Source: Bacteroidia bacterium (GTDB lineage: Bacteria > Bacteroidota > Bacteroidia > B-17B0 > Aurantibacillaceae). From it: DNA of 64,000 nt. The stretch lies in assembly GCA_026414605.1 (NCBI GenBank), contig JAOAIP010000034.1:1-64000 (forward strand). The letters run 5' to 3'. The position numbers were made by a program, and so were the translations under genes. The notes below the pieces were generated by a model. The model made no database searches, had not been told where the DNA came from, and was given only the letters and a program-made list of their open reading frames with translations. Shown piece by piece: positions 2,630 to 58,800 of this stretch (position 1 is the stretch's first letter; each line of letters starts with the position of its first letter).

Positions 2630-2669
2630 CAACTTTCAACTTTAAACTTTTAACTTTCAACTTTCAACT
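2630..2669 (-). repeat. Heptanucleotide repeat tract at the dacB 3' end
   Basis: The + strand shows ACTTTCA, ACTTTAA, ACTTTTA, ACTTTCA and ACTTTCA in register with a strict 7-base period, equivalent to (GTnnAAA)n on the other strand. The tract runs into the stop codon of the dacB-like gene (2668). It is one of about ten such tracts in the window. Confidence 0.85.
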
Positions 2670-4750: not shown

Positions 4751-4805
4751 AAATTTTTTCATAGTAGTACTAAAAATTTTTGTTTCTAATGAATTTACAT
4801 TTTTA

Positions 4806-4850
4806 ACCACAAAGAACACAAGGCATTAACACAAAGTGCACAAAGAACGA
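4806..4850 (+). repeat. Dispersed ACACAAAG-type intergenic repeat
   Basis: The + strand holds ACCACAAAGAACACAAGG followed by ACACAAAGTGCACAAAGAAC, an imperfect reiteration of ACAAAG units. Related sequence occurs on the opposite strand at 20650-20700 and 38329-38342. No open frame or hairpin is associated with it. Confidence 0.5.
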
Positions 4851-4888
4851 TTGTCGGTTTAATTCAACTAAATCACCGCTTTTAAAAT

Positions 4889-4911
4889 TTTCACTTTCTA
4901 CTTTCTACTTA
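4889..4911 (-). repeat. Heptanucleotide repeat tract upstream of frr
   Basis: Three units of ACTTTCT-type sequence with a 7-base period lie about 60 bp before the frr start codon. This is the same family as the tracts at 2630-2669 and 8850-9411. Confidence 0.75.
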
Positions 4912-6359: not shown

Positions 6360-8444
6360 TTACTTATTCTGTTGAATAATCAACTTTTTACTAATAACAC
6401 CATTTTCGCTCATTAAACACACCACATACATTCCTTCAGAAAGCATTGAAATATCTACATAAGGTTGATCAAATTGTAAAACTTCTTTACCAAATAAATC
6501 AAATATCTTGCCTTTCCATTTTTCTTGATTGGTAATTCCTTGAATAAAAATAAAATGACTTGCAGGATTTGGATAAATAACAATCTTATGCAAAGGATTT
6601 GAATTTGTAGATATACCAACCAATTCAGGTTGTGCTGTTACTTTTTTACGAATAACATTGAGTATCTTTCTATTTTCAATTAACGTATCGTGTTCATAAA
6701 CATAAGCAATAAGGTATAAATTATCAAAATGATAACGAAAAGCATTATTAGATGTAGGAATATTTAAAGTGTATGTTTGACTATATGTAGTGCCGATATT
6801 AGGATTGTTAGGAATAACCGCGTTATCCCCATAAATGCCCTTGTGTAGATTGTTGGCTACTATGTGATGTTTGTATTGATAAGCATTCAATACAAAAGCA
6901 TTGGCCGTAGGTGAAAAATAACCTTGTTGATAATAATTGGAATAAGGCGTGTAATAAAACGCTGATAGTTGATTGTATCCGTTTATGCTTGTATCCGTTG
7001 GATTTCCATAGACATTGTTTTCCATCAAATAAACATTAACTCTATAATCACCTACTGCATTTTGCAAAAATGTAACATTGACATCTAATTGAATTTTTCT
7101 TTGAATGGTATCTACTAAAACATTAGAAATACTGATGGTGCAAGGTGTAATACTGTTTTTTAATGAATTAATTTTTGATCTCAAATCATTTAATGCAAAA
7201 TAATTTTTACGATCATTAGTAAAGTAAGTTCTATTTATAAGTGCCAATAATTGATTTTCAGGCAAATTGTAATTTTTGAAAAATAAATTGTTATTCCCTA
7301 ATTGCAATGAATCTTTTTGATGAATCTGAATAGCAATACAATTCGTATCTTGTTGTGTGATGTTCATTAAAGTGTCTTGATAAGCAGGGGCATACGAAAG
7401 CGATGCATCTGTAAATTGTTCTACCAATATTTTAGGAGTTATAGAATTTGAAAGTACAGAAAGATAATACGAAATGGTGTCGTTAAAATGATTTTGATCA
7501 TTTTGTCCATTTATTTGATTGACCCATATTTTCACTTTGTATAATCCTGCGGTATTGATAGTCAAAGTATTAGTAAAAGCAACAGTCGTTGTCGCCAAAG
7601 GAATAAGATTAGTATTCAATGAAAAAGTTTGACTATTGTAACTAATCCCTTGAATGCTGTATGCTAATTGAACATTTGAAATATTTTGGTATCCTTGATT
7701 TACAATGCCACACATTAGTTGAAATGGCTGATTGACCACCACATATTTTGTGTTGCCTTTATTTTCAATGGCTACATCGTATGCATTAGATAAGTTTTCA
7801 ACCACAATATCATCTATCCACAATTGATACTTTTGCCGTGAGATATTTTTAAATGCAACACGAATGCTTTGTCCTGAATAATTAGCAAGCGATACACTGC
7901 GATGCGTCCATTGTTGTTTTTCACCCCCACCGCTTGTGCTGTTATCATTGATTTGAAATACTTTATTACCACTTGTAAAAATACTTGTATCTATGGTGCT
8001 TGTATTCGTTGTTACATAAACAGCATAACCATCTGCATAAGTAGGATCAGGAGACATTGCCTTCCAATGCAATACCGAATTTACTGAAATTCCACTAATA
8101 ACAGGCGATAGCACCCATCTACTAATTGCTTTATTGGTATCCACCCAAGATGTAGAAACCAAAAATGTATCTTTCAATACCGCATTATATACTACCCCCC
8201 ATCCTTTTTTTCTCAAACTATCTGTGTGAAAAGGCGTATTAGGATGCAAGGAACTTCCTTGTTGATTTTTATATCCCTCGCTGATTTCAATAAATCCTGA
8301 TGGCAAAGTAGTGTAATTCGTTACAACATAAGCCGTGCTGTAAGTTGACAAAGTCAAATTATTAAAACCTTCCTTAAATATCACTTGTGCTTTTACAGAT
8401 AAACTTACAAAAACACTCAAAGCAAAATACTTTATTTTCCTCAT
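6360..8444 (-). CDS. Secreted T9SS type A protein with choice-of-anchor J and Omp28-like regions
   Basis: Protein of 694 residues. The signal peptide is about 1-20 (ends VKAQ). Residues 20-215 resemble a cleaved-adhesin/choice-of-anchor J beta domain (W..SP.I with W.DDI.VE). A CARDB-like stretch at about 225-330 follows, then an Omp28-like region beginning ILVEQFTDAS near residue 340. The expected Cys-x-x-Cys of Omp28 relatives is replaced (YAPAY). The last 80 residues form a type A sorting domain (IYPNPASHFIFI, IFDLFGKEV, GMYVVCLMSENG, KKLIIQ). Probably a surface-anchored or released protein; the substrate is unknown. Confidence 0.88.
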   Translation of the reverse strand: MRKIKYFALSVFVSLSVKAQVIFKEGFNNLTLSTYSTAYVVTNYTTLPSGFIEISEGYKNQQGSSLHPNTPFHTDSLRKKGWGVVYNAVLKDTFLVSTSWVDTNKAISRWVLSPVISGISVNSVLHWKAMSPDPTYADGYAVYVTTNTSTIDTSIFTSGNKVFQINDNSTSGGGEKQQWTHRSVSLANYSGQSIRVAFKNISRQKYQLWIDDIVVENLSNAYDVAIENKGNTKYVVVNQPFQLMCGIVNQGYQNISNVQLAYSIQGISYNSQTFSLNTNLIPLATTTVAFTNTLTINTAGLYKVKIWVNQINGQNDQNHFNDTISYYLSVLSNSITPKILVEQFTDASLSYAPAYQDTLMNITQQDTNCIAIQIHQKDSLQLGNNNLFFKNYNLPENQLLALINRTYFTNDRKNYFALNDLRSKINSLKNSITPCTISISNVLVDTIQRKIQLDVNVTFLQNAVGDYRVNVYLMENNVYGNPTDTSINGYNQLSAFYYTPYSNYYQQGYFSPTANAFVLNAYQYKHHIVANNLHKGIYGDNAVIPNNPNIGTTYSQTYTLNIPTSNNAFRYHFDNLYLIAYVYEHDTLIENRKILNVIRKKVTAQPELVGISTNSNPLHKIVIYPNPASHFIFIQGITNQEKWKGKIFDLFGKEVLQFDQPYVDISMLSEGMYVVCLMSENGVISKKLIIQQNK

Positions 8445-8525: not shown

Positions 8526-8611
8526 CGTCATTGCGAACGCAGTGAAGCAATATCAAAGGAATTTCCACTATCTCACACGAGATTGCTTCGGGCAACGCCC
8601 TCGCAACGACG
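8526..8611. repeat. Palindromic CGTCATTGCGA-type repeat unit 1
   Basis: The unit begins CGTCATTGCGAACGCAGTG and ends CTCGCAACGACG, with inner arms GAAGCAATATC and GAGATTGCTTC. It can fold into a long imperfect hairpin. It lies inside mosaic element copy 1, between blocks 1 and 2. Related units are common intergenic repeats across many bacterial genomes. Confidence 0.8.
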
Positions 8612-8679
8612 AGTGGCTGTGGCTCGCTCGGGTCGGGCTGCTACGGGCTTCGCTATCGCTTCGGCAATCCTCGCCTTAT

Positions 8680-8774
8680 CGTCATTGCGAACGAAGTGAA
8701 GCAATCTCAATGGGACTATCACTCACTCAATAAGAGATTGCTTCGCCCTTCTTAAAAAAGGGCTCGCAATGACG
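8680..8774. repeat. Palindromic CGTCATTGCGA-type repeat unit 2
   Basis: Second copy of the same palindrome: CGTCATTGCGAACGAAGTG at the left and GGCTCGCAATGACG at the right, with GAAGCAATCTC pairing to GAGATTGCTTC inside. The outer arms match better than in unit 1. It sits between blocks 2 and 3 of mosaic element copy 1. Confidence 0.82.
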
Positions 8775-8849
8775 ATGACTAACGAAGGCGAGGCAGTGCC
8801 GGCGGTTCGCTTCGCTCACCGCCGCCCTCCGCATCCCTCACGCAAATTT

Positions 8850-8987
8850 TAGTCAAAAGTTAAAAGTCAAAAGTTGAAAGTAATTATCCTTAAAATTTTA
8901 GTCAAAAGTTAACAAAAACATTATTCTTTATCACTTTCCACTTTCTACTTTCCACTTTTTACTTTCAACTTTCTACTTTCTACTTTT
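8850..8987. repeat. Inverted pair of heptanucleotide repeat tracts
   Basis: The left arm (8850-8911) reads GTCAAAA, GTTAAAA, GTCAAAA, GTTGAAA, then a second short run; the right arm (8931-8987) is the reverse orientation, ACTTTCC, ACTTTCT, ACTTTCC and so on. Each has a 7-base period. The arms can pair imperfectly into a long AT-rich hairpin. The pair directly follows mosaic element copy 1 and precedes the four-helix-bundle gene, filling the rest of a 550-bp gap. Confidence 0.85.
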
Positions 8988-8998
8988 ATATTAAAAGT

Positions 8999-9343
8999 TC
9001 ATAATGTCTTTATTAGACCAGAAATAAGTTTTGAAATTTCTAATGTTAATTGCATTAATGTATTAAAAGCACTTTCAGTAATTTTATTAAGTTCTTTTGC
9101 TAAATATAACATAGACCGAACTTCTCCACAAGAACCTTTAGCAACATATAGAAAGTATCTAAACTCATCATTCGTTCTTCTTTCAAAACCTTCGGCTATA
9201 TTATTCATTATAGATACAGCCGATCGTTGAATTTGATCTTTAAATCCAAAATCTTTACTTTCAGAAAATTCAGTATAAATACTGACCGCTAAATCCTTTG
9301 CTTTTTGCCAAGCAATGATATCTTCAAATCTCTGTATTTTCAT
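8999..9343 (-). CDS. Four-helix-bundle protein (23S rRNA intervening-sequence protein family)
   Basis: Protein of 114 residues. It shows the family signature: F..I.AWQKAKDLA at the N terminus, FGFKDQIQRSAVSIMNNIAEGFER in the middle, and EF..FL.VAKGSCGEVRS after it. Founding members are encoded inside 23S rRNA intervening sequences; free-standing copies are frequent in Bacteroidota and of unknown function. The ATG at 9343 is preferred over an upstream TTG. The gene is flanked on both sides by heptanucleotide tracts. Confidence 0.9.
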   Translation of the reverse strand: MKIQRFEDIIAWQKAKDLAVSIYTEFSESKDFGFKDQIQRSAVSIMNNIAEGFERRTNDEFRYFLYVAKGSCGEVRSMLYLAKELNKITESAFNTLMQLTLEISKLISGLIKTL

Positions 9344-9353
9344 ATTCTTCAAA

Positions 9354-9411
9354 TTTAACTTTCCACTTTTAACTTTCTACTTTCCACTTTCAACTTTTTA
9401 CTTTCTACTCA
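9354..9411 (-). repeat. Heptanucleotide repeat tract upstream of the four-helix-bundle gene
   Basis: About eight consecutive ACTTTnn units with a 7-base period and varying last two bases lie immediately 5' of the minus-strand four-helix-bundle gene. Together with 8931-8987 they bracket that gene in the same orientation. Confidence 0.85.
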
Positions 9412-9429: not shown

Positions 9430-9834
9430 TCACTCTAACAGCACTCTATCTTTCCCATCAAAATACGGCGATTGTATGCTTATCACTTTAAGGGGTTTTT
9501 TAGATGTTGTAATAACTTTATGCGGTGTATTTTTAGGAATGAATACAATGTCATTTTTTTGAATAATAAATTCTTTATCCCCTAACTTCATCTTTCCTTC
9601 ACCTTCTAATACTACTACAAATTCAGAGTGATGTAAATGCTTATGCAGTTTGACTTCTTTTTTAATGATTATCACAAAGCCCGAACTCAAAGAATCGCCT
9701 GCTATGGATTTTACATAGATATTATCAGATGGACTTGCTTTTCCAATAGTATCGGCATTAGTGTGTGTTTGAGCAAATACTTTTAATCCCATCATTACAC
9801 ACATTGCTATTGTTACAAATATCCGTGTTTTCAT
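9430..9834 (-). CDS. Exported cupin-domain protein
   Basis: Protein of 134 residues from the ATG at 9834, chosen because it gives a clean signal peptide (MKTRIFVTIAMCVMM..KVFAQ). The single cupin barrel shows motif 1 as KLHKHLHHSEFVVVLEGEGK and motif 2 as IPKNTPHKVIT, so a metal site is plausible. Periplasmic location is likely. It starts 4 bp after the TolC gene on the same strand, so the two are probably co-transcribed. Ligand or reaction unknown. Confidence 0.85.
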   Translation of the reverse strand: MKTRIFVTIAMCVMMGLKVFAQTHTNADTIGKASPSDNIYVKSIAGDSLSSGFVIIIKKEVKLHKHLHHSEFVVVLEGEGKMKLGDKEFIIQKNDIVFIPKNTPHKVITTSKKPLKVISIQSPYFDGKDRVLLE

Positions 9835-9838
9835 CGTA

Positions 9839-11254
9839 TTAAAAATTAATAGATTTTCCTGCATAGAATTCTAAAATTTTTAGTTTAAAGAACAAGTCGT
9901 ATTTGGCTTGCATTAAATTGAGTTCTGCACTAACTTTCCTATTTTTGGCAGTAGCGTATTCAAAAAAAGAAATAGCCCCTTGTTGGTATTTGCTTTCATT
10001 GACTTCATAGGATGTTTGAGCCGCATTAAAGGACTTGATACTCGCTTCGTATTTGTGCAATGCGGCTTTGGCATTTTGATATGCTTGCACGATTGTTTTA
10101 TACAAATTTTGATGGTTTAATTCCATATCATATTTGGCACTTAATACATTGAGTTGAGCATTTTTAATAGCCGTGTGCGTGCTTAAACCATTGAATAATG
10201 GAATGGTCAAACTAAATCCAAGTGTTTGATTAAAATTATCTTTGTATTGTTGTAAAAATGGCGTTTTTTCAAGTATGGGTACTTGTTGTGAATATACTAA
10301 TGGACCAAATCCAGGAATGTTACCTAAGGTATCTGTTCTTGTTTGGTATCCTATAATTCTTTGGGCTAAACCTGAATACCCTGTGGCTAACGATGCACTG
10401 ATACTAAGCGTAGGACTTCTTCTCCCCCTGTTGGCTTTTAATAGATATTCATTGGCTTTTAGTTGGTATTCTTTGCTTTTTATAGAAGGTTGTGTGTTTA
10501 CAGCCATTTTGAAGATATCATCTGCCGTATATTGATTTAATATATCCGTATTGATATTTACTTCTGGTCGTACTATTTCAATGTCTTTATCAGATGGTAG
10601 ATTGAGAATTTGCTTTAATGCTAATAAATTGAGTTCATAATTGTTTTTAGCGTTGATAACATTCAATTCATCATTAGCGAGTTGGGCTTCAATATCTTTT
10701 AAGTTAGAGGGGGCTACACTGCCTTGTTCTACTAATATCTTTGTGCGATTGTATTGTTGTTTTGTAATTTCGTATTGTGCCTGATTGACTTGTAAAATAT
10801 CTTGCGATAACAATACATTTATATAAGCCGTTGCCACATTGAGTATTAAATCATTTTTTTGTTGATTTAATAATTCCTGTGAAGATAAAGCGTGCATTTT
10901 ATTGGATAGAACGGTATTGTGTTGAGAAAGTCCTGACCAAATGGTCCATTGAGCAGATAAAAAGAAGTTTTGAGAAAGCACTTGTGTATTAGCAAAGGTA
11001 TTGGTATATCTGTCTATGGTTCGTCCGTATTGATAGAGATGATTAGCCCCTGCATTGAGAGAAGGTAAACTTTGTGCTTGAGATTGAAGAGCATTGTTTT
11101 GGGCAAGTTTTACATTAATCTCACTCATTTTGATATTTAAATTATTTTGAATAGCGATGTCTATACATTGCTGTAAATTGAGTGAATGGCTTTGCCCAAT
11201 TAAAAGAAAATAGGGTAAAGCAAATAAAAATATTAAAATGATTCGCAGCAGCAT
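9839..11254 (-). CDS. TolC family outer-membrane efflux protein
   Basis: Protein of 471 residues with a signal peptide (about 1-20). The usual duplicated alpha-barrel/beta-barrel organisation is recognisable: NLQQCIDIAIQNN at the start of the first half, PSLNAGAN, and the second-half FSLTIPLFNG. TolC proteins form the outer-membrane exit duct of tripartite pumps. No periplasmic adaptor or inner-membrane pump lies next to it, so the partner must be encoded elsewhere. The exported cupin gene follows after 4 bp. Confidence 0.93.
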   Translation of the reverse strand: MLLRIILIFLFALPYFLLIGQSHSLNLQQCIDIAIQNNLNIKMSEINVKLAQNNALQSQAQSLPSLNAGANHLYQYGRTIDRYTNTFANTQVLSQNFFLSAQWTIWSGLSQHNTVLSNKMHALSSQELLNQQKNDLILNVATAYINVLLSQDILQVNQAQYEITKQQYNRTKILVEQGSVAPSNLKDIEAQLANDELNVINAKNNYELNLLALKQILNLPSDKDIEIVRPEVNINTDILNQYTADDIFKMAVNTQPSIKSKEYQLKANEYLLKANRGRRSPTLSISASLATGYSGLAQRIIGYQTRTDTLGNIPGFGPLVYSQQVPILEKTPFLQQYKDNFNQTLGFSLTIPLFNGLSTHTAIKNAQLNVLSAKYDMELNHQNLYKTIVQAYQNAKAALHKYEASIKSFNAAQTSYEVNESKYQQGAISFFEYATAKNRKVSAELNLMQAKYDLFFKLKILEFYAGKSINF

Positions 11255-14159: not shown

Positions 14160-14384
14160 GGGCGTGCCCCTCGCTTGCCACAGCAGAATGATAACCTCTG
14201 TTTTCCATCTATTCAAATAAGTTTTTAAAGCGACAAAGAATGTCGTTCACTATTTCATCGGCTGTGGCTCGCTCGGGTCGGGCTGCTACGGGCTTCGCTA
14301 TCGCTTCGGCAATCCCTTCGCTACGCTCAGGGCAGTGCCGGCGGTTCGCTTCGCTCACCGCCGCCCTCCGCATCCCTCACGCAA
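14160..14384. repeat. GC-rich mosaic repeat element, copy 2
   Basis: Blocks 1 (14160-14186), 2 (14260-14315) and 3 (14331-14384) match those of the copy at 8489-8845 in order and orientation. The spacer between blocks 1 and 2 is unrelated AT-rich DNA here, and the spacer between 2 and 3 is only about 15 bp. The element occupies the 3' flank of the scoA gene. No credible coding frame. Confidence 0.88.
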
Positions 14385-14501
14385 CTCACCCCCCATCCCC
14401 TCTCTTTTGAAAAAGAGAGGGGCGATGCGAATAACTCTTTTTACTATTGTTCCCCCTCTCTAATTCATTTAGAGAGGGGGAAATAAAGGGGGTGAGTAAA
14501 A
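14384..14501. mobile_element. Small palindromic insert nested in mosaic element copy 2
   Basis: The segment starts ACTCACCCCCCATCCCC and ends GGGGGTGAGT, an inverted repeat at its ends, and contains two hairpins: CCCCTCTC...GAGAGGGG (14397-14422) and CCCCCTCTCTAA...TTAGAGAGGGGG (14452-14480). It is bracketed by two copies of CTCCGCATCCCTCACGC (14366-14382 and 14502-14518), the end of block 3. It has no coding capacity. Either a non-autonomous insertion or a recombination product. Confidence 0.55.
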
Positions 14502-14524
14502 CTCCGCATCCCTCACGCGAACTT

Positions 14525-14643
14525 AGTTAAAAGTTGAAAGTAAAAAGTAGAAAGTTTTCTTACTGCCAAAGTGATAATCTCCCCAATCTCACAAAAAATT
14601 ATCTCTACACTCCACTTTCCACTTTTAACTTTCAACTTTCTAC
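14525..14643. repeat. Inverted pair of heptanucleotide repeat tracts next to mosaic copy 2
   Basis: The left arm (14525-14555) reads GTTGAAA, GTAAAAA, GTAGAAA; the right arm (14610-14643) reads ACTTTCC, ACTTTTA, ACTTTCA, ACTTTCT. The 55-bp centre is non-repetitive AT-rich DNA. The arrangement mirrors the one beside mosaic copy 1. Confidence 0.82.
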
Positions 14644-38079: not shown

Positions 38080-38324
38080 AGTTGAAAGTTAAAAGTAAAA
38101 AGTCCGTCCCGTAGGGATAAAATATGGGTAGCCCCGAAGGGGCAAAATACAATAGCACAGGGCAAAGCCCTGTGAAAATAAATCTACACCATTTCAGGCC
38201 CTGGAAGGGCGACACCTATAAGGAAGAAAGTTGAAAGTTAAAAGTAGAAAGTATTAAAACGCTATATCATTATATTGAAAAATATTTCCTTTTACTTTCA
38301 AACTTTCAACTTTCCACTTTGTAC
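38080..38324. repeat. Heptanucleotide tracts around a cluster of small hairpins
   Basis: This fills much of a 505-bp gap. Tracts in GT orientation lie at 38080-38104 and 38225-38252, and in the reverse orientation at 38296-38324. Between the first two are short palindromes: TCCCGTAGGGA (38107-38117), GCCCCGAAGGGGC (38131-38143), CACAGGGCAAAGCCCTGTG (38156-38174) and GCCCTGGAAGGGC (38198-38210). A short ACCACAAAGAAC-type repeat (minus strand) is at 38329-38342. No coding frame. Confidence 0.8.
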
Positions 38325-42042: not shown

Positions 42043-42117
42043 TACATTTGCGGTGTGATTAAGACCATTTAAATTCTACTTTGAATTAGTGTACTTTGAA
42101 TTAGTGTACTTTGAATT
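42043..42117 (+). promoter_or_regulatory. Three 15-bp direct repeats with an upstream TAnnTTTG box
   Basis: TACTTTGAATTAGTG occurs at 42077-42091 and 42092-42106, and its first 11 bases recur at 42107-42117. A TACATTTG -7-like element is at 42043-42050. The array lies in the 393-bp intergenic region between the HTH gene and the T9SS protein gene. Each unit also contains the TTTG core, so the repeats could be operators or overlapping promoter-like elements. Confidence 0.6.
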
Positions 42118-52595: not shown

Positions 52596-55500
52596 ATGAA
52601 AACAACTTTACTTAAAACCATCGGTTTAGTTTTGTTTATAAATGAATTTTTTGCTCAAACTTGGATATTTAATTATGTAGGAAATACACCACAAAATTTT
52701 GTAGTTCCACCAGGTGTTTGTAGAATTAAAATTATTGTAAAAGGTGCAGGAGGCGGTGGTGGAACTTGTGGTGGATGCCACTTTGATGGTGGGTATGGAG
52801 GAGATGGTGGATATGTAGAAGGTATTTTTACCGTAAATGCAGGAGATGTGTTATCAATTTATGTGGGTGTAGGTGGTACTGGTGCCCAAGAATGTACGCC
52901 GAATTGTGGAGGAGGAATCGGAGGATGGGGATATACAATCGGTGGTAATGGGGGACATAGTCCAACTGCTCCGTTTAGAGATGATCTCGGTGGCGGTGGT
53001 GGGGGAGGAGGAAGTTCCGCTGTTTTGATCAATGGTAGTGTTGCAATAGTAGCTGGTGGTGGTGGCGGCGGCGGTGGTGGTGGTGCTTGTGGTGGTGGAG
53101 GAGGAGATCATGGAGGAAATGGAGGACATGGTGGTGGAACAAATGGTGGTGGGGGTGCAGCGGGGGGACCAGCAGGTGGAGCCCCAACAGGTAATGGAGG
53201 AAATGGAATGAATGGCACAGGATGTTGTAGTAGTGGAGCAGGTGGTGGTGGTGGTGGTTATCCCAATGGTGGCGGTGGAGGAATAGTACCTGCTTGTGGC
53301 GCCACAGGTGGTGGCGGCGGAGGTAGCAGTTACTGTGCAGGTTCTGCATGTGTTATTAATAATGGAGGAGGAGGAACTGGTGGTGGGCAAAATGCTGATG
53401 GTGCAAATGGAGAAGTGCGAATTATTAATATATCTCCACCTCTTAATTTATCTATAACTTCTCAAAGCATAACTTGTTACGGCTATAATGATGGTTGTGC
53501 TACGGCTATTCCTTCGGGTGGCAATCCCCCCTTTACTTATACTTGGTCAAATGGTGCCACGAATGCTACTAATTGTGGCCTTGGTCCTGGAAATTATACC
53601 GCTACAGTGATTGATGTTTATGGATGCAAAGCTACTAATACCGTGCAAATCATAGAACCCACACCGGTTGTTCCATCTGCCGTCACTCAAAGTGTATCTT
53701 GTTTTGATTTTAGTGATGGAAGTGCAACGGTTACAGCCACAGGTGGCACCGGTACCTATGGATATTTTGAATTTCAACCACAAGGTGGTGCAGGAAGTAA
53801 CAATTTTGCTAACTACCTCCACGCAGGAAATTATACCGTAAATGTCTATGATGGTAATAATTGCGTGGGTACAACCACTTTTCAAATTATTGAGCCACCT
53901 CCTATTATACTTTCTTATCAAACAAAATCTGTAACTTGTTATAATGGTTCCGATGGTAGTGCTACGGTTACAGCTATTGGTGGCGTTGGAAATTACAATT
54001 ATTCGTGGTTACCCAATGTATCTAATACTAATATCATAAATAATGTCCCATACAATACTTATACCTGTCTTGTAACGGATGCTAATGGTTGCGTTAAACA
54101 AATAAATATACCTATTAATCAACCTCAACAAGTTACATTTACATTTAATGTTACACCAGATAGATGTCACCAAAATAATGGAATCATCTATAGTATTGTA
54201 AATGGTGGAGTTCAGCCATATCAATACTTATGGAGTAATGGAACAACTCAGTACAGTGTCTCCGGACTTAGTGGAAATCAGATGTATACACTTACTATAA
54301 CCGATGCTAATAATTGTGTATACCAAGATACTGTCTTTGTCCCCGCTCCTGAACCTCCTCAAATTACTTCAACATCTTTTACGCCTCCTCTATGCTATGG
54401 TGGAAAAGATGGTACTGCTTATGTTACTCATCAGTATGGAACCCCTCCACTTTATTATCAATGGGTACCTCCTGCCAATGGGTATCAAGATAGTATTAAT
54501 TATTCTGTATCGGCAGGAACGTATACTGTTTATTTACAAGATTATTATGGATGTCTTACTTATACCACTATCACCGTTACACAACCACCACCTATTGGCT
54601 TAAATGTTAGTCCTGATCAAGTAATTTGTTATGGAACTACTGCTACTCTTTCTGCTAATGCCTTCAATGGCACTTTACCTTATCAATACTTTTGGGATAC
54701 TAACAGCGGATTTACAGGAAGTGGGCCACACATTGTTACTTTAACAACAACTACTCAATACTCTGTTTTTGCAGTTGATACAAATGGTTGTAAAAGCGAA
54801 ACAAAAGTTATTAATATAACTGTAAAACCACCTCTATTAGCAAAAGGAGAAAATATCACAATTTGTGCTGAAAGTAGTTATACTCTTGAACCAATTTTTA
54901 CCAGTCCTGGAAATAATGGACCCTATACTTATCAATGGTTTAATGGAGTTACAACAAAAACGAATGTGATAGTTGGAGATATTAATAATAATCCGGCCAC
55001 TTATTCAGTTACCATTAGTGATGGGTGTAGTAATCCAGATGCTGTGGCTGTTTTTACGGTGAATGTTCTCCCAAAGCCGAAGGGATATTTTACATCCGAT
55101 TTTCAAAAAGGATGTCCACCCTTAAAAGTTACATTTAATGCTACATCTGATGGTGCAAACGACCAATATATTTGGACATTAGGAAATGGAAATACCTTGA
55201 CTGGAAATAATATCATTCAAATTTATGAAGGGGTTGGTACCTATACAATTGGACTTCAAATTACTAACCAATATGGATGCAGAAGAGATACAATTGTTCC
55301 AGATTATATTGAAGTTTTCCCTCAACCAAAAGCCGATTTTGAACCAATGCCTTCTGTAACCACTATTGAAGATCCTATTGTGAATTTTTCTAATTTAAGT
55401 AACGGAAATGATTTTAATGAATGGAATTTTGGAGATATGTATAGTTTAAATAATATCAGTTACGAATTACATCCATATCACGTTTATGAAATGGCCGGGG

Positions 55501-55877
55501 ATTATGATGTTTATTTAGTGGTGAAAAATTCTTATGGATGTAGAGATGTAATAATGAAAAGAATTAGAATTGAACCAGTTTATCATCTTTATATTCCGAA
55601 TGTGTTTACTCCTAATGGAGATGGCTTAAATGATGTATTTTTACCAAAAGGTGTTGGAATAGATGAAAATAACTACAAAATGTTGATTTATGACCGATGG
55701 GGCGAACTTGTTTACCAAAGTAATAATTTATACATTGGTTGGGATGGAAGTATTAAAAATAAATCTAATTCTGCAACACAAGATGTTTATGTTTATAAAA
55801 TTTATACACAAGATTTAAAAGGTAATAAATACGAATATGTGGGTCACGTTACTTGTTTGCCAAATGAAGAAAAATAA
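52596..55877 (+). CDS. Large T9SS type B adhesin with glycine-rich domain and SprB repeats (first paralogue)
   Basis: Protein of 1093 residues. The signal peptide ends FFAQ. Residues about 30-270 form an extremely Gly-rich domain with short Gly runs and paired Cys. About six SprB-type repeats (75-80 residues; motif TCY.G.DG.A....GG..PY.Y.W ... AG.YT....D..GC) occupy 285-745, then one Ig-like module and two PKD modules (TLGNGNT, NFGDMYS) to about 1000. The last 90 residues are the gliding-associated type B sorting domain (IPNVFTPNGDGLNDVF, YDRWGELVY). Similarity to SprB suggests a surface adhesin. Confidence 0.93.
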   Translation: MKTTLLKTIGLVLFINEFFAQTWIFNYVGNTPQNFVVPPGVCRIKIIVKGAGGGGGTCGGCHFDGGYGGDGGYVEGIFTVNAGDVLSIYVGVGGTGAQECTPNCGGGIGGWGYTIGGNGGHSPTAPFRDDLGGGGGGGGSSAVLINGSVAIVAGGGGGGGGGGACGGGGGDHGGNGGHGGGTNGGGGAAGGPAGGAPTGNGGNGMNGTGCCSSGAGGGGGGYPNGGGGGIVPACGATGGGGGGSSYCAGSACVINNGGGGTGGGQNADGANGEVRIINISPPLNLSITSQSITCYGYNDGCATAIPSGGNPPFTYTWSNGATNATNCGLGPGNYTATVIDVYGCKATNTVQIIEPTPVVPSAVTQSVSCFDFSDGSATVTATGGTGTYGYFEFQPQGGAGSNNFANYLHAGNYTVNVYDGNNCVGTTTFQIIEPPPIILSYQTKSVTCYNGSDGSATVTAIGGVGNYNYSWLPNVSNTNIINNVPYNTYTCLVTDANGCVKQINIPINQPQQVTFTFNVTPDRCHQNNGIIYSIVNGGVQPYQYLWSNGTTQYSVSGLSGNQMYTLTITDANNCVYQDTVFVPAPEPPQITSTSFTPPLCYGGKDGTAYVTHQYGTPPLYYQWVPPANGYQDSINYSVSAGTYTVYLQDYYGCLTYTTITVTQPPPIGLNVSPDQVICYGTTATLSANAFNGTLPYQYFWDTNSGFTGSGPHIVTLTTTTQYSVFAVDTNGCKSETKVINITVKPPLLAKGENITICAESSYTLEPIFTSPGNNGPYTYQWFNGVTTKTNVIVGDINNNPATYSVTISDGCSNPDAVAVFTVNVLPKPKGYFTSDFQKGCPPLKVTFNATSDGANDQYIWTLGNGNTLTGNNIIQIYEGVGTYTIGLQITNQYGCRRDTIVPDYIEVFPQPKADFEPMPSVTTIEDPIVNFSNLSNGNDFNEWNFGDMYSLNNISYELHPYHVYEMAGDYDVYLVVKNSYGCRDVIMKRIRIEPVYHLYIPNVFTPNGDGLNDVFLPKGVGIDENNYKMLIYDRWGELVYQSNNLYIGWDGSIKNKSNSATQDVYVYKIYTQDLKGNKYEYVGHVTCLPNEEK

Positions 55878-55895
55878 TTTTCAAAACTAAACTTT

Positions 55896-58800
55896 ATGAA
55901 AATCAGAAAAATATCAAAGATATTAGTGCCTTTTATAGTTGTTCAATATATTTTTTCTCAAACTACATTTACTTTTAATTATACTGGTGCTATTCAAAAT
56001 TGGGTGGTTCCTCCTGGTGTGTGTCAAATAAAAATTATCGCTTATGGTGCAGGCGGTGGCGGTGGTGGAACAGATACTTATGGACCTGGTAATGGTGGTA
56101 ATGGAGGATATGCAGAAGGTGTTTTTAATGTACAGCCGGGCGATAATCTGACTATTTATGTAGGGCAAGGTGGAGGTCCCGGAACAACAGGTAGTAATGG
56201 ACCCGGTGGTGCAGGCGGTTGGGGGTATGGTAATGGGGGTAATGGCGGTAATTCTGGTGTTGTCGGAAGCAGTGGCTCCGGTGGAGGCGGTGGAGGTGGT
56301 TCAGGCATTTTAATTAATGGAAATCCCGCCCTAATAGCAGGTGGTGGCGGAGGCGGAGGCGGTGGTGGTAACTTTGCCGCAGGTGGAAATGGAGGACTTG
56401 GTGGAGGAACTAATGGTGCACCTGGTAGTAGTGGAGGAGCCGGTGGTACCGCTGGTGCTTCTGCAAACACAAATGGAACAAATGGACAAAACTATAGTGG
56501 TGACGGCGCAGGAGCAGGTGGCGGAGGAGGAGGATACAACGGTGGAACAGGTGGCCAAGTCGCCGGATGTGATTGTGGCGCTGGTGGTGGAGGCGGCGGT
56601 AATAGCTATTGCAGTGGAACATCCTGCATACTTACCAACGGCGCAGGTGCAACAGGTGGAGGAGCAGTTACCGCAGGTGCCAATGGGACTGTACAAATTG
56701 TCATTCTTGCCCAATCTACTATTTCTTCAGCAAATATTACTTCTCAATCTGTTACTTGCAATGGACAAGCCACTGGTGGTGCTACCCTCAATATCACAGG
56801 AGGAACACCTCCTTTGAGTTATACATGGATGCCTGGAAATGTAAATGCATCTTCTATAAGCAATGTTTCTGTGGGAACATATACTGTCTATTATTCAGAT
56901 GCAAGTGGATGTGTTTTTTCTGAAACTGTAAATATCCCTCAACCTGCACCTTTAAGTGTTACATCCATTCAAACGAAATCAGTAACTTGCTATAATGGAA
57001 CGGACGGAAGTGCTACTGTGACAGTAAGTGGCGGTAATGGACCTTATTCTTATACTTGGCTTCCAACAGGAGGTTCTAATTCTATTGCTACTGGTCTTGG
57101 TTGTGGTACTGTCCAACCCAACCCTTCTATCACTTACACAGTTAAAATATCCGATGTCAATAATTGTACTGTTCAAGCAACCGCCATTATTAATGGACCA
57201 CCTCAAATAATGGCGCATGTTTTAAGTTATAATAATGTTACTTGCAATGGAGCAAATGATGGTATGGTAAAGTTACTTACTAATGGCGGAGTAGGTTATT
57301 TTCCGGGCGCTAATTTAACTTATACTTATGTCTTTGCTCCCACAGGATATAGTGTTGCTGCTAATAGTCCAACTGTTACTAATCTTCCTCCTGCTAATTA
57401 TACAATCTACGTATATGATGCCAACCAATGTTATGATACAATTCGCTTAAACATTACAGAACCACCACCATTAACTTTAACAACGGCTGTTCAACAAACA
57501 GTTTCTTGTAAAGGTGGGTACGATGGTGTCGCAAGCGCAACTGTTCAAGGAGGTACACCCTTTTATACTTATTATTGGTATGATGCATCAGGAAATATTG
57601 TTGCCAATCAATCTACTGCAAATTATTTACCAGCAGGTAATTATACAGTAAGCATTACGGACTTCTATAATTGTTCTATTACAGGAAGTGTTTCAATCAT
57701 AGAACCAGCAAGTCCCGTTAGTATTACAGGGGTGAGTTTGCAGGTTGCACAAACAAATTGTGCAAGCGCACCTTCCAATACGCTCTATATTAATGTGGGG
57801 GGAGGTATGGGTAATTATACTTATTCTTCAACGCCAGCAGCAATCAATTCTTCAGTCAATGTAAATGTCCCAAGCAATTCATATACTATTTATGTTTCTG
57901 ATATAAATGGATGTACTACTAATACCACTTATGTTATAAACCTTCCACCAGCATTCACTGCCACAGCAGTACAAGTTCAAAGTGTTACTTGTAATGGATA
58001 TACCAATGGTGCAGTATCTGTAATTGCCCAAGGTGGAACAGGTGCTTATACCTACACTTGGTTACCTAATAATAATTATGGTCAAACACAATACAATTTA
58101 GCAGCAGGAGTATATACTGTGCTTATCAGTGATTCAAGACCTTGTGTAATTAGTGAAACTGTTCAAGTGATAGAGCCACCGCCATTGCAAATTGTGAATT
58201 TGCAATCTAATCCTGCACTTTGTGGAAATGCTAATGGTGGTGCTACTGTAACTGCATCCGGTGGAATGCCGCCTTATACTTATACTTGGAGTAGTGTGCC
58301 AATACAAACAAATTCAGTGGCTTTTGGATTAACAGGGGGCACAACCTATTCTGTTTTTGTAGAAGATATCAATAACTGTATTATTTGGGATACTATTTTT
58401 ATCCCTAATCCATTACCTCCTTTAATCACAAATATAAGTTTCACTCCTCCTTTATGTTATGGAAATAACAATGGATCGGCTTCTGTCTCTTTTGTAAATG
58501 GTGTGCCGCCTATTTCTATCAATTGGCAACCAGGTAATTGGCCCGGAAGTGCTACAATATACAATGTACCTGCTGGAATTTACACCGTTACTTTAACTGA
58601 TGCTAATGGATGCCAAACCTATACAACTATTAATGTTACACAACCTCCCGCATTGAGTTTACAAGTTACTCCGACTCATACAATTTGTTATGGTACAAAT
58701 GGTACAGTACAAGCCATTCCTGATGGGGGAACACCGCCTTATATTTATACTTGGAATCCTGCTATATTTGTGGGTGGAGGTCCTCATCCTATTCCTCTTA

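Follow-up and report, generated by a model that had tools for sequence, protein, structure and literature searches.

Tandem GTNNAAA heptamers of a Bacteroidia genome as probable inverted arms of small mobile elements that carry an IVP gene in their full-length form

Intervening sequences (IVS) of bacterial 23S rRNA, described in Leptospira and Coxiella, can carry an S23/IVP open reading frame, and the stem that they form is cut by RNase III (PMC4990558); IVP has also been reported in rRNA insertions of CPR bacteria (PMC11270868), and it is mainly from rRNA insertions that this gene is known until now. Its relation to Avd has already been noted (PMC10053308). As for tandem heptamers, the degenerate heptameric SSRs GGGNATC and GGGGAYT of Xanthomonas and Nostoc are intergenic, mostly of about four units, with 70-75 convergent pairs per genome in Xanthomonas; they were linked to G-quadruplexes and stated to be generally not associated with mobile elements (Rehm 2015, PMC4692102). 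The TAACTGA heptamers of Beggiatoaceae, Cyanobacteria and Bacteroidetes are mostly direct repeats near start codons and were read as regulatory (MacGregor 2015, PMC4679880). Our literature search found no work connecting IVP/S23 genes with heptamer repeats, an absence that is no proof since the search was limited to open-access papers.

The window analyzed here is the whole 64,000-nucleotide stretch of contig JAOAIP010000034.1 (positions 1 to 64,000) from the Bacteroidia bacterium assembly GCA_026414605.1 (Aurantibacillaceae). A preliminary description had listed ten GTNNAAA tracts in it, all of which are present within a few bases of the positions given there; it did not include the ORF lying between two of the tracts, the conserved cores found between others, or the probable mobile-element nature of the whole. 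In our view the heptamer tracts probably represent terminal arms, in inverted orientation, of small mobile elements that form one family and whose full-length form has an IVP gene; this reading draws on the anatomy of the elements and its generality, on their dispersal, on empty and occupied sites, on deletion derivatives and on a strong sense bias. The features of the window are as follows (copy numbers "in the sample" refer to the 635-kb sample described below).

2634..2668, minus strand: solitary intergenic tract of five exact units
4888..4908, minus strand: solitary intergenic tract of three units, just downstream of CACAAAG-type repeats
8852..8879, plus strand: facing arm of four GTNNAAA units, outer end of the composite
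8880..8934, plus strand: conserved 55-bp core (D) of a short element, present 4 times in the sample
8935..8983, minus strand: seven GTNNAAA units 3' of the IVP gene, which double as the inner arm of the core-D short element
8999..9343, minus strand: intact IVP four-helix-bundle gene (PF05635 23S_rRNA_IVP, TIGR02436), ATG at 9343, stop TGA at 8999-9001
9360..9408, minus strand: seven GTNNAAA units a short way upstream of the IVP start codon, forming the 5' arm of the element
14526..14553, plus strand: left arm of the core-C short element, four units
14554..14615, plus strand: core C, 4 copies in the sample
14616..14643, minus strand: facing arm on the right of core C, four units; the hairpin has a z of about -7
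38081..38101, plus strand: outer left arm; a GC-rich repeat nested at about 38102-38229 lies between it and the inner arm
38230..38250, plus strand: left arm of the core-A element, three units
38251..38303, plus strand: core A, of the family with the most copies (about 40 in the whole genome)
38304..38324, minus strand: facing arm on the right of core A, three units

The two tracts at 8931-8987 and 9354-9411 point in the same direction rather than toward each other; the IVP ORF, for which an alternative start is possible at the in-frame TTG at 9352, lies between them, and the composite around it gave a stem z of -4.07. This copy sits between the protein ORFs 6360-8444 and 9430-9864, outside any 23S rRNA gene.

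Exact three-unit GTNNAAA matches number 401 in the whole genome (2.48 Mb), against 6 for the reversed control pattern, while tracts of at least three units number 75 in a 635-kb sample of the same genome (stretches of it plus the window), against none in five order-1 Markov shuffles, so the tracts are as non-random as had been suggested. Because the sampled contigs were partly hit-selected (most of the first 20 stretches were picked for having hits), the tract density per base is biased upward; the shuffle and orientation tests are unaffected. ORFs, which make up 86% of the sample, contain none of the 75 tract midpoints, in agreement with the intergenic placement first described. Close neighbors are oriented '+-' in 32 cases, '++' in 6, '--' in 1 and '-+' in none, and the three facing pairs of the window fold far beyond shuffles on either strand (z -4.6 to -7.4); the facing pairs and their potential to form hairpins thus hold as well. 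The spacing of the '+-' pairs is quantised (45, 53-55, 60-62, 69-70 and 77 bp), since conserved cores separate the arms. Within this genome, arms pair with their own partners no better than with swapped ones (-20.97 own, -22.14 swapped), meaning that the two variable bases do not covary here, and selection for a hairpin at these bases is unsupported in this genome. Same-genus relatives have 0, 3 and 0 GTNNAAA matches and one other genus of the family has 50, so that the tracts are recent and patchy; we rejected the idea that they are a conserved family trait on account of their near-absence in congeners.

The protein encoded by the window IVP gene scores 120 bits with PF05635 (cut-off 33.8) and 115 bits with TIGR02436 (cut-off 24). 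Its AlphaFold model (pLDDT 95.5) matches the structure of Xcc0516 (2gsc, TM 0.91) and also BT_0352 (2rld); DGR Avd 4dwl is a more distant match (TM 0.78), DGR RNP structures were matched too, and the PHROG Avd profile hits the protein with E=1.3e-5. The copy at 8999-9343 is the sole intact one in the genome. Family F of the facing pairs corresponds to the N-terminal part of this gene, and at least 10 truncated IVP copies were found at separate genome sites, one deletion junction, which joins ..CAACGATCGG to AAAAAACTTTC.., being common to them, small changes aside; their 5' arms differ in unit number. The truncated copies are an internal-deletion derivative that has spread through the genome. 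No transposase or recombinase was found inside the elements, the sole ORF of the parent being the IVP four-helix bundle; profile searches of this genome gave 0 hits for the RVT_1 reverse transcriptase (PF00078) and 0 for the Y1 transposase (PF01797), with positive controls for the latter, and RVT_1 was also not found in the IVP-rich relatives G009, G022, G042 and G075.

The same anatomy was found well beyond this genome. One scan of a genome collection gave 517 IVP relatives, from which we kept 79 loci spanning Bacteroidota, Patescibacteria, KSB1, Neomarinimicrobiota, Cloacimonadota and others; most of them have the ORF between a 5' (AAAGT N2/N4)n arm and a 3' (N2/N4 ACTTT)n arm, the latter beginning at the IVP stop codon. 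Chains of at least two AAAGT lie 5' of 56 of the 79 genes and chains of at least two ACTTT lie 3' of 61, while either occurs in 15 of 1,302 control windows. In a set of 144 non-redundant loci from Bacteroidota, cyanobacteria, Patescibacteria and others, the gene again stands between inverted arms, mainly of 7-base units, whose sequence varies among elements while every 5' arm matches its own 3' arm. A lag test that assumes no unit sequence gave, for the 80-bp flanks of these 144 loci, an excess of lag-7 self-matches of +0.102 (se 0.006). The corresponding values are -0.016 for 3,337 distant windows and +0.013 (se 0.007) for 146 further non-coding segments; lags 8, 9, 14 and 15 are raised in the IVP flanks too, but less than lag 7. 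The number of 7-mers in common with the reverse complement of the own 3' arm is 6.22, against 1.77 when arms are swapped (best of 20,000 permutations, 2.68), and the duplex energy of the two arms is -38.7 for own and -32.9 for swapped arms (best of 5,000 permutations, -36.8). Moreover, the more similar the IVP of two loci, the more similar their arms (rho 0.41; null maximum 0.12), which together with the own-arm matching indicates that the arms travel with the gene.

Arm sequences differ between elements within one genome. In the family of the window, where 53 of 61 genomes have IVP, other heptamer arms are NNAATAG, GTACNNT, GGCAGTA, GAGTTAT and AACATTT; the arms of cyanobacterial plasmid IVP elements are GGGAGTA, GGGAACA, GGGTGTA or AGTCAGA, and a divergent IVP subfamily and one solo hairpin (L200, L207, L223, L224, L252) have octamer arms such as CAATNNNN. 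There are exceptions, some IVP loci having weak arms or 8- or 9-base units.

Empty and occupied sites could be compared directly. Of 29 genomes of one genus, 20 have a short sdhA-sdhB spacer with nothing in it; in 5 the spacer contains IVP, one of these copies belonging to a different subfamily, and in the remaining 4 it contains a hairpin of heptamers or octamers without a gene. Among Nostocales plasmids that are about 97% identical, one site is filled with IVP in Trichormus and Scytonema and is empty in others, where ..AAAAAGTAA runs directly into TTAACAAATAAAT..; at another site, two plasmids have IVP, one has a gene-less element and two have neither of these. The empty sites are without any heptamer tract. 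Candidate target duplications, GTAA and TTCTA, were seen at two plasmid sites, other sites not being resolvable. Because 20 of 29 spacers are empty and the arms and IVP subfamilies differ at one and the same site, these comparisons point to gain of the IVP element rather than its loss.

Orientation was counted for loci flanked on either side by an ORF of 90 aa or more. At 112 of 113 tandem sites IVP runs in the direction of its two neighbors; the exception, between nrdB and nrdA, is antisense to both, and 8 further loci have a mixed arrangement. Median gaps are 48 nt on the upstream side (preceding stop codon to IVP start) and 50 nt on the downstream side (IVP stop to following start codon). 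These other loci lie mainly between protein-coding ORFs and not in 23S rRNA, for example between sdhA and sdhB or in conjugation operons; in plasmid pANA02 of Anabaena sp. 90 (L181) the element separates cas6 from cas4 within a type I-D CRISPR operon. Two readings agree with the sense bias: IVP expression may be selected for, or insertion may be coupled to transcribed RNA.

The 32 facing pairs of the sample sort into families A (12 pairs), B, C, D and E (4 each), F (3) and one singleton, the window pairs 14526-14643, 38230-38324 and 8852-8983 belonging to C, A and D, respectively. Families A to E are short dispersed inverted-repeat copies without a complete gene, which use the same arms as the IVP element and make up most of the pairs here; their cores show no similarity to IVP DNA and they may merely have their arms in common with it. 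The cores could belong to MITEs of an unrelated family that a conventional transposase moves and that acquired heptamer arms independently, so that only the IVP-derived copies would belong to the element described here, a possibility that we take seriously while regarding it as doubtful. It is also in its favor that the conservation of family A extends past the arms, adjoining other repeats, so that the arms are not the termini of every short element. It accounts less well for the arm consensus, the geometry and the genome that the cores have in common with the IVP element and its deletion copies, and for the gene-less heptamer hairpins that other genomes have at the same site in place of IVP. 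Joining the 80-bp flanks of short elements and comparing them with the sample yielded no empty sites in this genome, because the flanks are themselves nested repeats. In another genus of the family (genome G009, L131-L145), gene-less elements with GTNNAAA and AAGCCAT arms have a different conserved core (..GGGGTTTTNCATAAACGAAATCG..).

The association of the tracts with GC-rich elements, reported in the preliminary description, is real for many copies; it looks like nesting or adjacency of separate repeats and not like a functional pairing. A GC-rich palindromic mosaic (GTCATTGCGA..TCGCAATGAC, GGCGGTTCGCTTCGCTCACCGCC, CCCTCACGC, GGGGGTGAGT) abuts heptamer arms in the window at 8527-8845 and 14230-14510, and its modules recur beside many copies elsewhere in the genome. 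Several family-A copies have a GC-rich repeat nested in or beside the left arm; in the window, a second GC-rich repeat (..GTAGCCCCGAAGGGGC..CCCTGGAAGGGCGACACC, about 38102-38229) is nested inside the left arm of the core-A element in this way. Other repeats of the window are the CACAAAG-type repeats with a 9-base step at 4803-4850, which adjoin a solitary GTNNAAA tract and might be the arms of a different kind of element, a perfect 15-base tandem repeat (TACTTTGAATTAGTG) at 42077-42117, and a TGG/GGT-rich stretch with 9-base Gly-coding repeats at 53054-56533.

The tracts might instead be independent microsatellites of the host, grown by slippage, in or near which IVP or other repeats merely land. 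Heptameric repeats are over-represented in many bacterial genomes in a report that does not mention IVP (Rehm 2015, PMC4692102), near-identical copies can differ by whole units (one arm of L186 and L260, two nearly identical IVP copies, by two heptamers), and arms do not covary in this genome. We nevertheless find this explanation improbable: empty sites have no tract for an element to land in, each 5' arm is a reverse-complement match to its own 3' arm, arm sequence tracks IVP phylogeny and differs between elements of one genome, and '-+' pairs are absent. Less probable still is a role of the hairpins as signals at gene ends, whether as bidirectional terminators or as mRNA stabilisers, that selection for host regulation would have maintained. 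The hairpins are stable and strictly intergenic, and many of them are near gene ends, but 5 of 22 pairs in this genome lie between convergent genes (14 are co-directional and 3 divergent), which is no enrichment; IVP elements lie inside operons (sdhA-sdhB; cas6/cas4), the same sites are without the element in most relatives, and congeners are nearly devoid of it. The role in RNA 3' ends that had been suggested for the tracts is not supported.

Returning to the mobile-element reading, the full form consists of a 5' arm of variable heptamers, an Avd-like IVP/S23 gene and a 3' arm starting from the IVP stop, the reverse complement in kind of the first; shorter forms have kept the arms and lost the gene, either as internal deletions of IVP or as hairpins with other short conserved cores. 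Insertion is between genes and, for the IVP form, nearly always in the sense direction, shortly after the upstream stop and before the next start, where IVP may be expressed by read-through from the host operon. In RNA, the arms could form a long stem that sets the insert apart, much as in the rRNA IVS, whose stem RNase III cuts, and the arms may also serve as recognition structures for mobility, the factor acting in trans being presumably IVP plus host enzymes.

This would offer one candidate answer to two old puzzles, the nature of the abundant heptamer repeats of bacterial genomes and the affiliation of S23/IVP proteins outside rRNA. We speculate, with little confidence, that the degenerate heptamer repeats found in cyanobacteria, Xanthomonas and Bacteroidota, a puzzle since about 1990, represent terminal arms or relics of a single class of mobile elements with Avd-like proteins and no transposase of their own, which would enter operons in sense, perhaps via RNA or ribosome-associated insertion, the IVP oligomer reading the heptamers in register. 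As the putative element is very common (IVP in those 53 of 61 genomes), has no known transposition enzyme and shows a striking strand bias, its mechanism is directly testable.

Compared with known systems, the IVP protein takes the fold of the DGR accessory protein Avd and matches the Avd PHROG; unlike in DGRs, no RVT_1 reverse transcriptase was found in this genome or in many IVP-rich relatives, and RT-driven movement in this genome was rejected on that ground. REP/BIME sequences with RAYT (Y1) are likewise intergenic palindromic repeats of high copy number, but REPs have neither tandem-heptamer arms nor IVP, and an identity with REP/RAYT was rejected because this genome has no Y1_Tnp gene (PF01797). 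MITEs are similar as short dispersed non-autonomous copies with inverted repeats, including internal deletions of a longer parent, whereas the parent here is without a recognizable transposase and the arms vary in unit number and sequence. The TAACTGA repeats and the cyanobacterial STRRs are also intergenic tandem heptamers with a patchy distribution across phyla; TAACTGA differs in its fixed unit, its mostly direct repeats and the lack of a link to IVP. The resemblance to cyanobacterial repeats, previously seen as one of concept, is closer than was supposed, because cyanobacterial IVP genes are also bracketed by heptamer arms. The SSRs of Xanthomonas and Nostoc are G-rich and those here A-rich, and no link to IVP had been made for the former, but both are degenerate intergenic heptamer tracts, and Xanthomonas campestris also encodes an IVP (XCC0516, PDB 2gsc). 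Lastly, the 23S rRNA IVS have in common with the elements described here the PF05635 protein, an ORF within stem-forming terminal inverted repeats, a sporadic distribution and the sense orientation; the elements here differ in lying between protein-coding genes of operons and not in rRNA, in having variable heptamer arrays as arms where the IVS has one fixed repeat, and in occurring also as gene-less solo and deletion forms.
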